From Sporodiniella umbellata (taxonomy: Eukaryota > Mucoromycota > Mucoromycetes > Mucorales > Rhizopodaceae): a DNA stretch of 64,000 nt. A program made the translations under genes and the position numbers. Position 1 is the stretch's first letter. Each line of letters begins with the position of its first letter. The stretch covers positions 124,001 through 188,000 of the forward strand of contig JAIXMR010000008.1 in NCBI GenBank assembly GCA_025677835.1, given 5' to 3'. This document shows positions 2,905 to 5,683 of the stretch, piece by piece. The notes beneath the pieces are model-generated. The model did no database searches. It saw only the letters and a program-made list of their open reading frames with translations, and was not told the DNA's origin.

Positions 2905-3421
2905 ATGCAACTTTTCGTCAAGTCCCTTGCCGGCAACACCCTCGCTCTCGAGGTCGCCCCCAACGCTTCTGTTGATAATGTTAAGTCTATGATTGCCGCT
3001 CGTGAAGGTATAGCTTAACTTTTTCAATATGAAGATGTGAGATTCTAATCAACCCTAATTAGGTATTGACGCTTCTTTCCAATGTCTCTCCTTCGCTGGT
3101 AAGTCTCTTCAAGACTCTCAAGCCATCTCTATGTATGGTGTTCAAGATAACTCTACTCTTCACCTTAACGCTGAACTCCTCGGTGGTGGTAAGAAGAGAA
3201 AGAAGAAGACCTACACCACCCCCAAGAAGATCAAGCACAAGCGTAAGAAGGTCAAGATGGCTATCTTGAAGTACTACAAGGTCGATGAAGCCGGCAAGAT
3301 TACCCGTCTCCGTCGCGAGTGCCCTAACGCCACCTGTGGTGCTGGTGTGTTCATGGCTAAGCACAAAGACCGTCAATACTGTGGTAAATGTCATTTGACC
3401 TACGTCTTCCAAAAGGTATAA
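2905..3421 (+). CDS. Ubiquitin-like / 40S ribosomal protein eS31 (S27a) fusion with a degenerate ubiquitin moiety
   Basis: join(2905..3007,3063..3421), 153 aa, with a 55-bp intron. Residues 1-76 align without gaps to ubiquitin; from 78 on it is a normal eS31, with the [13 protein letters not shown] basic start and a C..C (CPNATCG) and C..C (CGKC) zinc ribbon. eS31 is a 40S subunit protein near the A site, made as a ubiquitin fusion and cleaved after Gly76. The ubiquitin part is strongly altered: I44S, V70N, K11N, K29M, K33R, R42C, K63D, R72E, R74L; K6, K27 and K48 remain. The junction reads LLGGG. It is therefore unlikely to serve as conjugating ubiquitin. C. elegans UBL-1/S27a is a precedent for such an architecture. 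Codon use is strongly biased (GGT, AAG, CTC), as in the neighbouring EF-1alpha, which fits high expression. A ctgttcag acceptor lies 2 nt before the ATG, suggesting a 5'UTR intron. Confidence 0.93.
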
Positions 3422-4231
3422 ACCATCACAAAAAAAAAACAATACAGAAACTTTAGGTATAGAATGCTTACAAAATGGTATAGGATCAACAAGCTTAAAC
3501 CCCTTTTTGTCGCGTCTATTTAATAATAAAAGCAAAAAAACTCAAACAACAGAAAAATACGATTTGTAAATATGTGCCAATTTTGACGGCCTTTGTAAAC
3601 AATACTTTTCTTACCGATCTAAAGCCTAGCAGCTCGATTTAGATACACAAGTTTGCGAGCGCCATCTATAGTGGAAGGATTTTCATCATCCATAGTGATT
3701 TCTGTTTTCAATAATAATTTTCGTTTCATTATTTGCTCAAGGTTTTTTTTTTTTTTTTGATGTCTGAAAGAAAGACAAATAGAGTATAAAACAGAGCCTA
3801 TCTACTTAATTCAGGGCTGCGTGTATGACATAATAAATATCAAACAAATTTCTTAACGTTGTCCAAGGTCTCCAAAAAGGAACAGCTTTTTGCTGTTGAA
3901 AGAACGGGTATCAGGTACGGTTTGTGATACATAACACAGGCGAGATTCAGAAATAAAGCATCAAGTACAAACAGCAAACTTAGTAGCTGCTAAACAGTCT
4001 TATTTGGGAGTAACCGGAATAGCTTAACCATTGTTTGATAACGGCAAACACAGAAGGAGAAAGGCAACTTTTAAAAAAATAGAAAAACACGAAAAAAGAC
4101 ACATCAGGATCTTCTCTTGGCCAGAGCACCGGAGTAAGAACTATTATGTGGCTTAGTCGCTAAAGTGTTTATATATCAGAATTTTTAGTGGAAAAAAATA
4201 GTTCTCTCCTCCACTTTCTCAAAGTTTATAA
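3422..4231. other. Intergenic, eS31 3' flank to EF-1alpha promoter
   Basis: About 800 bp with no supported gene. The minus strand holds a 24-codon ORF (3619-3693) with no recognisable match, followed by a GTAAGA donor-like site at its end; it could be a stray exon or nothing. The EF-1alpha core promoter should lie in the right part; a TATATC stretch occurs near 4171. Confidence 0.5.
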
Positions 4232-4306: not shown

Positions 4307-5683
4307 ATGGGTAAAGATAAGACTAACGTCAGTGTTGTTGTCATCGGTCACGTCGATTCTGGTAAATCTACCACTACCGGCCACTTGATTTACAAGTGTG
4401 GTGGTATTGACAAGCGTACTATCGAAAAGTTCGAGAAGGAAGCTGCTGAACTCGGTAAGGGTTCTTTCAAGTACGCTTGGGTTCTTGATAAGCTTAAGGC
4501 TGAACGTGAACGTGGTATTACCATTGATATCGCTCTCTGGAAGTTCGAAACCCCCAAGTACCAAATTACCGTTATTGATGCTCCCGGTCACCGTGATTTC
4601 ATCAAGAACATGATTACCGGTACTTCTCAAGCCGATTGTGCCATTCTTATCATTGCTGGTGGTACTGGTGAATTCGAAGCTGGTATTTCCAAGGATGGTC
4701 AAACCCGTGAACACGCTCTTTTGGCTTTCACCTTGGGTGTCCGTCAATTGATTGTTGCTGTTAACAAGATGGATACCACCAAGTGGTCCGAAGCTCGTTT
4801 CAACGAAATTGTCAAGGAAGTTTCCTCTTTCATCAAGAAGATTGGTTACAACCCCAAGTCTGTCCCCTTCGTCCCCATCTCTGGATGGCACGGTGATAAC
4901 ATGTTGGAAGAATCCCAAAACATGTCCTGGTACAAGGGTTGGAACAAGGAAACCAAGGCTGGTGCCAAGTCTGGTAAGACTCTCCTTGAAGCCATCGATA
5001 ACATCGACCCTCCTACCCGTCCTTCTGACAAGCCTCTCCGTCTTCCCCTCCAAGATGTTTACAAGATTGGTGGTATTGGTACGGTCCCTGTTGGTCGTGT
5101 CGAAACTGGTGTAATCAAGGCTGGTATGGTTGTTACCTTCGCCCCCGCTGCTGTCACCACTGAAGTCAAGTCCGTCGAAATGCACCACGAAACCCTCTCT
5201 GAAGGTGCCCCCGGTGACAACGTTGGTTTCAACGTCAAGAACGTCTCCGTTAAGGATATCCGTCGTGGTAACGTCTGTTCTGACTCCAAGAACGACCCCG
5301 CTAAGGAAGCCGGTTCTTTCACCGCTCAAGTCATTATCTTGAACCACCCCGGTCAAATTGGTGCTGGTTACGCTCCCGTCTTGGATTGTCACACCGCCCA
5401 CATTGCCTGTAAGTTCTCTGAATTGATCGAAAAGATCGACAGACGTTCCGGTAAGTCTCTTGAAGCCGAACCCAAGTTCGTCAAGTCTGGTGACTCTGCC
5501 ATCGTCAAGATGACTCCCTCCAAGCCCATGTGTGTCGAAGCCTATACCGACTATCCCCCTCTTGGTCGTTTCGCCGTCCGTGATATGCGTCAAACCGTCG
5601 CTGTCGGTGTCATCAAGGCCGTCGAAAAGGTCGATAAGGCCGGTAAGGTCACTAAGGCCGCTGCCAAGGCCGGTAAGAAATAA
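4307..5683 (+). CDS. TEF1: Translation elongation factor 1-alpha (eEF1A)
   Basis: 458 aa, uninterrupted CDS. GTPase that delivers aminoacyl-tRNA to the ribosomal A site. Visible are the P-loop GHVDSGKST (residues 14-22), the G3 motif DAPGH and the G4 motif NKMD, followed by the beta-barrel domains 2 and 3 with the fungal-type lysine-rich end KAAAKAGKK. Length equals the family norm. Codon use is extremely biased to GGT, AAG, GTC and CGT, as expected for an abundant protein. Transcribed in the same direction as the eS31 fusion gene, 0.9 kb downstream. The long antisense reading frame over this gene is a by-product of the codon bias. Mucorales usually carry several EF-1alpha copies; this is one intact copy. 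Confidence 0.98.

Follow-up and report, generated by a model that had tools for sequence, protein, structure and literature searches.

A ubiquitin-derived domain maintained in place of ubiquitin on ribosomal protein eS31 in Mucoromycotina

Introduction

What is left for the ubiquitin-like domain (UBL) of an eS31 precursor to do once the residues by which ubiquitin is charged and recognised have been replaced? The question is raised by a gene in a 64,000-nucleotide stretch of DNA from Sporodiniella umbellata, which was analysed as a whole and is called the window here. The reason for producing ubiquitin precursors as fusions of this kind is a mystery according to a review (PMC8122580), which describes the ubiquitin part of yeast Ubi3 as a cis-chaperone and the uncut precursor as poorly assembled. 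Divergent ubiquitins on S27a, scattered over the eukaryotes, have been recorded in nematodes, Giardia, Plasmodium and other organisms (excerpts of PMC10457151 and PMC11354881). The 2005 list of Catic and Ploegh, as far as it is reported in PMC10457151, comprises 12 species beyond Caenorhabditis, nine of them protists; a mucoralean may be among the remaining three. No description of the mucoralean case was found among the matches listed in open-licence PMC texts.

UBL-eS31 is real, maintained and old, and its fungal form was not found described. It belongs to a known kind, the divergent ribosomal ubiquitins, and the surprise lies in a conserved new face and a recurring tail.

Results

The window gene has three exons

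The gene occupies positions 2905-3498 of the window on the forward strand and encodes 156 amino acids, a 76-residue UBL followed by eS31. The start at 2905 and the fusion itself, both proposed in the earlier note, agree with the exon model. Exon 1 (2905..3007, +) runs from UBL codon 1 into codon 35, which is interrupted at phase 1, after its first base, by a GT-AG intron (intron 1, 3008..3062, +). Exon 2 contains the rest of the UBL up to codon 76 (3063..3187, +), ending in NAELLGG, and the eS31 part (3188..3415, +), which matches Pfam PF01599 with an E value of 6e-26 and ends in FQK. The end at position 3421 given in the earlier note had to be corrected: the TAA at 3419-3421 lies within intron 2 (3416..3483, +), and exon 3 (3484..3498, +) adds DQQA and the stop codon. 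We infer that exon 3 is a real third exon because a paralog, C148, is of identical structure, with an intron 1 of its own and a matching intron 2, and because the relatives P0001 and P0002 have the same DQQA ending.

The genome assembly comprises 25.9 Mb in 198 contigs, and the nearest protein relatives among the matches listed are labelled Rhizopus. One inverted repeat was noticed near the gene, with one of its arms in intron 1. Roughly 800 bases downstream, an intact open reading frame on the same strand (window positions 4307-5683) resembles translation elongation factor 1-alpha.

A ubiquitin fold with altered recognition residues

Compared with ubiquitin, the window UBL carries K11N, K29M, K33R, R42C, I44S, K63D, V70N, R72E and R74L and retains K6, K27, K48, G75 and G76, so that the alignment agrees with the earlier note at every position named there. 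The Phe4 patch residues Q2, F4 and T12 are also retained. Identity to the ordinary ubiquitin units of the same genome amounts to 49-51%, or 48% in one longer alignment. A structural model of the close relative P0002, built from a 50-row alignment, has block-mean pLDDT values of 88-92 for residues 1-70, eS31 being modelled with low confidence. It superimposes on 1ubq with a TM score of 0.93 by target and an rmsd of 1.2 over 76 columns, and the PDB matches listed for it are ubiquitins, 1ubq included. The modelled domain is thus a beta-grasp ubiquitin fold ending in Gly-Gly. At the positions of Arg42, Arg72 and Arg74, the reported contacts of UBA1, the window UBL has Cys, Glu and Leu. From the Leu8-Ile44-Val70 patch, Ile44 and Val70 are lost in all 56 UBL sequences of the alignment described below, and Leu8 is kept in 54. 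The gene product has the make-up of a divergent S27a ubiquitin, a ubiquitin-derived and clearly non-ubiquitin domain N-terminal to eS31.

The ubiquitin ancestry of the UBL is demonstrated. The intron at phase 1 of codon 35 is common to the window gene and the ubiquitin-eL40 genes C79 and C117, two of the three such genes in this genome, which supports descent from a ubiquitin gene. A swap of FUBI from eS30 finds no support: the partner is eS31, and neither of the two eS30 loci of this genome is adjoined by a match to PF00240, ubiquitin or NEDD8, the three queries used. An origin from NEDD8 is unsupported as well. The window UBL has Glu72 together with ubiquitin-type Q2, F4, F45 and A46, in place of the NEDD8 type with Ala72.

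All eS31 loci found are of the UBL type, with purifying selection on the window UBL

A PF01599 search found three eS31 loci, the window gene (C177), C148 and C35. All three are of the UBL type and end their UBL in NAELLGG. C148 is a close copy of the window gene with the same introns; C35 has no introns, represents a second type (B) and lacks one residue near position 55. A second, canonical ubiquitin-eS31 gene, which together with a silent or decaying copy in the window would have refuted the earlier note, was not found among the three PF01599 loci of this possibly incomplete assembly. Canonical ubiquitin is encoded by the polyubiquitin genes C10 and C101 (three units each), by the first unit of C144 and by the ubiquitin-eL40 genes C79, C117 and C133. 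Thus, the other ubiquitin genes stay canonical except for the second unit of C144 (G000:C144:467944-468639; L039:245-940). This unit follows a ubiquitin, is 64% like ubiquitin and carries Lys42, Asn70 and Gly72; the region after it resembles an AN1 zinc finger.

Between C177 and C148, the UBL differs by 21 synonymous and 6 non-synonymous changes (dS 0.54, dN 0.035, dN/dS 0.066; Fisher p 4e-10), and the eS31 part by 18 synonymous changes and 1 non-synonymous change (ratio 0.010). The UBL is constrained by purifying selection, though less than eS31. The relaxed selection (dN/dS near 1) considered in the earlier note does not apply to this closest pair of paralogs, and the ratio of 0.066 rules out a decaying pseudogene. 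In comparison with C35, UBL dN/dS is 0.29 for C177 (dS 1.39) and 0.47 for C148 (dS 0.89). All these ratios refer to the three copies of this genome. As the same residues recur in 56 UBL sequences and synonymous changes outnumber non-synonymous ones 21 to 6, the UBL is not a product of chance, error or decay.

The UBL type is widespread in Mucoromycotina

A protein query without exon 3 gave 2193 matches, the best 120 of which were used. Among the matches listed, the named Mucoromycotina proteins with a readable tail were of the UBL type, representing at least 20 genera, Umbelopsis and 19 others that belong with it in Mucoromycotina. Three genes of Calcarisporiella thermophila, which has its own phylum in the taxonomy, are also of the UBL type. 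Hence, the change, whose sharing across Mucoromycota the earlier note proposed to examine, occurs in named proteins of at least 20 Mucoromycotina genera and of Calcarisporiella. Ordinary ubiquitin precedes eS31 in Rhizophagus, Chytriomyces, Zancudomyces, Dimargaris and the two Dikarya Phlegmacium and Coniochaeta, which served as six canonical rows. Queries with the UBL part only gave 43 matches (Umbelopsis query) and 3 matches (Calcarisporiella query). Mortierella and Endogonales did not occur by name among the best 120 of 2193 matches or those listed for the UBL-part queries.

The alignment comprised 56 UBL rows (53 proteins, some without an organism label, and the three copies of this genome), the six canonical rows and ubiquitin; the partial or odd models P0060, P0121, P0123 and P0125 were left out. 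K27, R33, K48, L73, L74, G75 and G76 are present in all 56 UBL rows, and R72 and R74 are replaced in all of them. Residue 44 is Ser in 52 rows (Thr in three, Asn in one), residue 70 is Asn in 54 (Ser in two) and residue 72 is Glu in 52 (Ala in three, Asp in one). N11 is found in 51 rows; R42 is replaced in 48 and kept in eight. Outside the alignment, P0060 ends in NAELIGG, showing that Leu74 is not strictly universal. Gly76 is followed by Gly or Ala and then KKRKKK or KKKKKK except in three gene models, P0023, P0054 and P0088. These lack the GKKRKKK start of eS31, probably owing to gene-model errors, and are still counted among the 56.

Five JGI proteins without an organism label (P0064, P0065, P0067, P0068 and P0074) have UBLs between ubiquitin and the Mucorales type and possibly stem from other early-diverging fungi. 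Four of the five keep R42. For instance, P0074 has a KTLTGKT start and R42, yet S44, N70, E72 and L74 are already present. P0011, labelled Rhizopus stolonifer, carries a UBL that groups with Choanephora, Blakeslea and Gilbertella, a possible label or contamination problem.

A conserved new face

Sequence entropy was computed on 40 thinned rows, with core and Ile44-patch positions assigned by hand. Mean entropy was 0.61 in the core, 0.67 at nine Ile44-patch positions, 0.28 in the tail and 1.52 at the 39 other surface positions (one-sided p 0.007 for the patch against the other surface, 0.0003 for patch and tail). The patch list mixes kept residues (8, 46, 47, 48) with variable ones (42, 49, 68), the latter being less conserved (entropies of 1.8, 1.4 and 1.1). 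Positions 7, 11, 13, 23, 33, 44, 60, 70, 72 and 74 are both changed and conserved. Patch and tail, taken as one, roughly match the core in conservation and exceed the remaining surface, and a new surface thus seems to be maintained. Likewise, the near-constancy of Ser44, Asn70 and Glu72 (52, 54 and 52 of 56 rows) suggests that the old Ile44 patch has been re-specified and is not decaying. The statement of the earlier note that the interaction surface has been lost thus holds for the hydrophobic surface, which is gone, but not for the face as such, in view of its core-like conservation.

Two UBL classes persist side by side

Nine species holding both a class A and a class B copy were compared. 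Mean identity of the eS31 halves was 0.96 between A and B within a species, and 0.89 (A-A) and 0.91 (B-B) between species. In five of the nine (Phycomyces, Hesseltinella, Cunninghamella, Gilbertella and Backusella) the species' own B was nearer than any A from another species; in the remaining rows, two of Rhizopus type and two of Absidia, it was not nearer, or only equal. Over UBL residues 1-47, all nine had an A from another species nearer than their own B, with mean identities of 0.62 within species and of 0.81 and 0.69 between species. In a tree of 23 eS31 halves, a single clade of A copies is rejected (p 0.0016). Trees of the UBL reject an A-B pair for the own genome (p 4e-5) and Cunninghamella (p 0.005) and do not reject it for Hesseltinella (0.18) and Phycomyces (0.09); the tree of the whole UBL is built on just 76 columns and is modestly supported. 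This pattern fits gene conversion of the eS31 halves while the two UBLs stay apart. The A-type UBL is B-like in its second half in Gilbertella, Choanephora, Blakeslea and Backusella, so that conversion seems to reach into the UBL.

Tail changes in other eS31-joined ubiquitins

A set of 127 proteins was sorted by hand into 57 clade members and 70 others, and those units of the others that were at least 75% identical to ubiquitin were counted. Residue 72 and/or 74 was changed in six of 65 eS31-joined units and in none of 29 units followed by ubiquitin, a contrast short of significance (p 0.10). P0030 and P0105 have R74L, P0048 and P0075 have R72E, P0053 has both, and P0078 has R72A with R74L. 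Ile44 and Val70 are intact in all six, and an upstream unit with RLRGG is present in P0030, P0048, P0053, P0075 and P0078 (partial in the last two). Positions 72 and 74 were the most often changed, four times each, compared with a mean of 0.65 and a maximum of three elsewhere, once eight positions that often vary, picked on the basis of these very counts, had been set aside. The six sequences carry no organism label, and some, such as P0078, are garbled; their clusters at 90% identity have 37 (P0048), 11, 7, 5, 1 and 1 members, the tail being read in the representatives. The reverse combination, in which the patch is altered and the RLR tail intact, occurs in four of the 65 units: P0037 (V70M), P0076 (L8T, H68R), P0083 (I44T) and P0120 (R42H).

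Discussion

Ubiquitin E1 strictly selects Arg72, and the variants selected with it in an earlier study all kept this residue, whereas NEDD8 E1 accepts hydrophobic and, less often, uncharged polar residues at position 72 and rejects basic ones (as far as given in PMC3731359). According to passages of PMC12355090, Arg42, Arg72 and Arg74 touch the crossover loop of UBA1, and residue 72 of SUMO is Glu or Gln. Sensitive positions of yeast ubiquitin under the control condition are Arg42, Ile44, Lys48, Gly75 and Gly76 (excerpts of PMC4862753); the UBL keeps Lys48, Gly75 and Gly76 and has lost Arg42 and Ile44. Set against these reports, the loss of Arg42, Arg72, Arg74 and Ile44 supports the expectation, already voiced in the earlier note, that the UBL would not be charged or read like ubiquitin. 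From its residues we strongly infer that it cannot be charged, and the precursor is likely to be cleaved at Gly-Gly. Ala72 of Calcarisporiella would be acceptable to NEDD8 E1, and thus a lock-out from every E1 would not be general.

With moderate confidence, we consider a ubiquitin-derived cis-acting helper for eS31, cut at Gly-Gly and barred from ubiquitin E1 by its tail, to be the best explanation. The UBL would fold first and help to keep eS31 soluble, as is reported for the cis-chaperone of yeast Ubi3; a protease of the deubiquitinase type would then cut after Gly76, and eS31 would enter the 40S subunit. Its tail, ELLGG and not RLRGG, would keep the freed UBL from entering the ubiquitin E1 cascade. 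The weakest step is the gateway, an early tail change that would have let the body leave the ubiquitin sequence without poisoning chains. In support of this, the six units with changes at R72/R74 have intact I44 and V70, and P0074 points the same way. The four units with patch changes and an intact tail (P0037, P0076, P0083 and P0120) oppose a strict tail-first order, and for this reason we hold the explanation less firmly. The former Ile44 face would have been re-tuned to a polar conserved surface made of S44, G47, K48, N70 and E72, which most simply might dock the processing protease or eS31 itself. A pure chaperone role alone leaves unexplained why Lys48 is constant and Asn70 and Glu72 nearly so.

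Relaxed drift, set free once the eS31-linked unit had escaped polyubiquitin homogenisation and sparing only fold and junction, corresponds to the view of Catic and Ploegh as reported in parts of PMC10457151. Variability of much of the surface (mean entropy 1.52 over 39 positions), the scattered occurrence of divergent S27a ubiquitins over the eukaryotes (same source, in part) and the four units, among 65 from outside the clade, that combine a changed patch with an unchanged tail all speak for it. We nevertheless regard drift as unlikely, given that patch and tail are largely core-like in conservation in their new state, that dN/dS is 0.066 and that residues 72 and 74 acquire the same new letters elsewhere. 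Alternatively, the freed UBL might work as a new modifier or a trans-acting ligand, using the new face and ELLGG with a dedicated E1 or reader. Gly75-Gly76 and Lys48 in 56 of 56 rows, the conserved S44/N70/E72 face and the coexistence of classes A and B in nine species, with eS31 halves that look homogenised in five, are consistent with such a function. However, Gly-Gly is needed for cleavage as well, the absence of the three arginines speaks against UBA1, and release in step with ribosome production would also be expected of a by-product, which makes a modifier quite unlikely in our judgement.

C. elegans UBL-1 (PDB 9bh5 chain Af) reads QRLCYAGR...ATIYVNLELLGG, that is C44, N70, E72 and L74. 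Like the fungal UBL, it precedes eS31, has I44 replaced (by Cys), shows V70N, R72E and R74L and keeps Gly-Gly. Unlike the fungal UBL, it is shorter, with a four-residue gap near position 53, keeps Arg42 and has Arg in place of Lys48. The independence of the two cases asserted in the earlier note does not follow from the sequences, as Asn70, Glu72 and Leu74 are common to both, though the UBL-1 body is nearer to ubiquitin than to the fungal UBLs. The chance of N, E and L occurring together is about 3 in 10,000, at general residue frequencies and for positions picked after being seen. A single eS31-linked UBL of ancient origin, retained in Mucoromycotina, nematodes and some other groups but lost from the rest, would explain these three residues. 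It would also account for the identity of UBL-1 and the fungal consensus at six of the 11 positions where both have left ubiquitin (32, 38, 60, 70, 72 and 74), and shared letters are not significantly enriched in the tail relative to the body (p 0.12). Residues 27-69 of UBL-1, however, match ubiquitin at 21 of 39 positions and the fungal rows at a mean of 15.6 and at most 19, as opposed to four of seven for ubiquitin and six of seven for the fungal consensus in residues 70-76. The common-descent comparison thus yields a shared tail and a body nearer to ubiquitin, with only 76 columns available for a tree. Moreover, the six canonical rows (Rhizophagus, Chytriomyces, Zancudomyces, Dimargaris and the two Dikarya) have ordinary ubiquitin, and the tail is also changed in six other fusions whose bodies are ubiquitin-like. 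Such an ancient UBL appears very improbable to us.

A large fungal group that swapped the modifier yet kept the fusion separates the chaperone role from ubiquitin supply. The recurring change of R72 and R74 suggests a rule, namely that free divergence is open to an eS31-linked ubiquitin only once it has ceased to be chargeable. Should our overall reading hold, work on Mucorales that assumes eS31 genes to supply ubiquitin would need correction. More speculatively, and decidedly doubtful, ELLGG might be the mark of 'ribosome-born' UBLs that arose repeatedly, the eS31-joined ubiquitin of several lineages having been shut out of E1 at Arg72/Arg74 and then re-tuned. In Mucoromycotina it would have become a dedicated ligand that binds its own partner (protease, assembly factor or reader) through the S44-K48-N70-E72 face and reports ribosomal protein synthesis in trans.

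Related tails occur in other named systems. PDB 5xxu chain f, probably Toxoplasma eS31, ends in TLYQSLELLGA, corresponding to S70, E72, L74 and A76. Like other apicomplexan UbS27a proteins it has a divergent ubiquitin on eS31, here with E72 and L74 in the tail; unlike the fungal UBL, it has Ser70 and Ala76. PDB searches for further divergent tails (Tetrahymena, kinetoplastids, others) did not bring these to light. Giardia GlUb-S27a is reportedly to be credited to Catic in 2007. It resembles the fungal protein in having a divergent ubiquitin fold on eS31, for which a chaperone role was proposed (passages of PMC10457151). In contrast to the fungal UBL with Gly-Gly in 56 of 56 rows, the Giardia junction is altered and uncut, a change that excerpts of PMC11354881 and PMC8122580 describe differently. 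The UbS27a ubiquitins of Plasmodium differ from each other by up to 36.8%, as stated in a part of PMC10457151. FUBI-eS30 (FAU) differs from the fungal fusion in its partner, eS30 instead of eS31. FUBI also has Leu at position 74. As is likely in the fungal case, a non-ubiquitin UBL is made with, and cut from, a protein of the 40S subunit (passages of PMC8354635 and PMC8122580).
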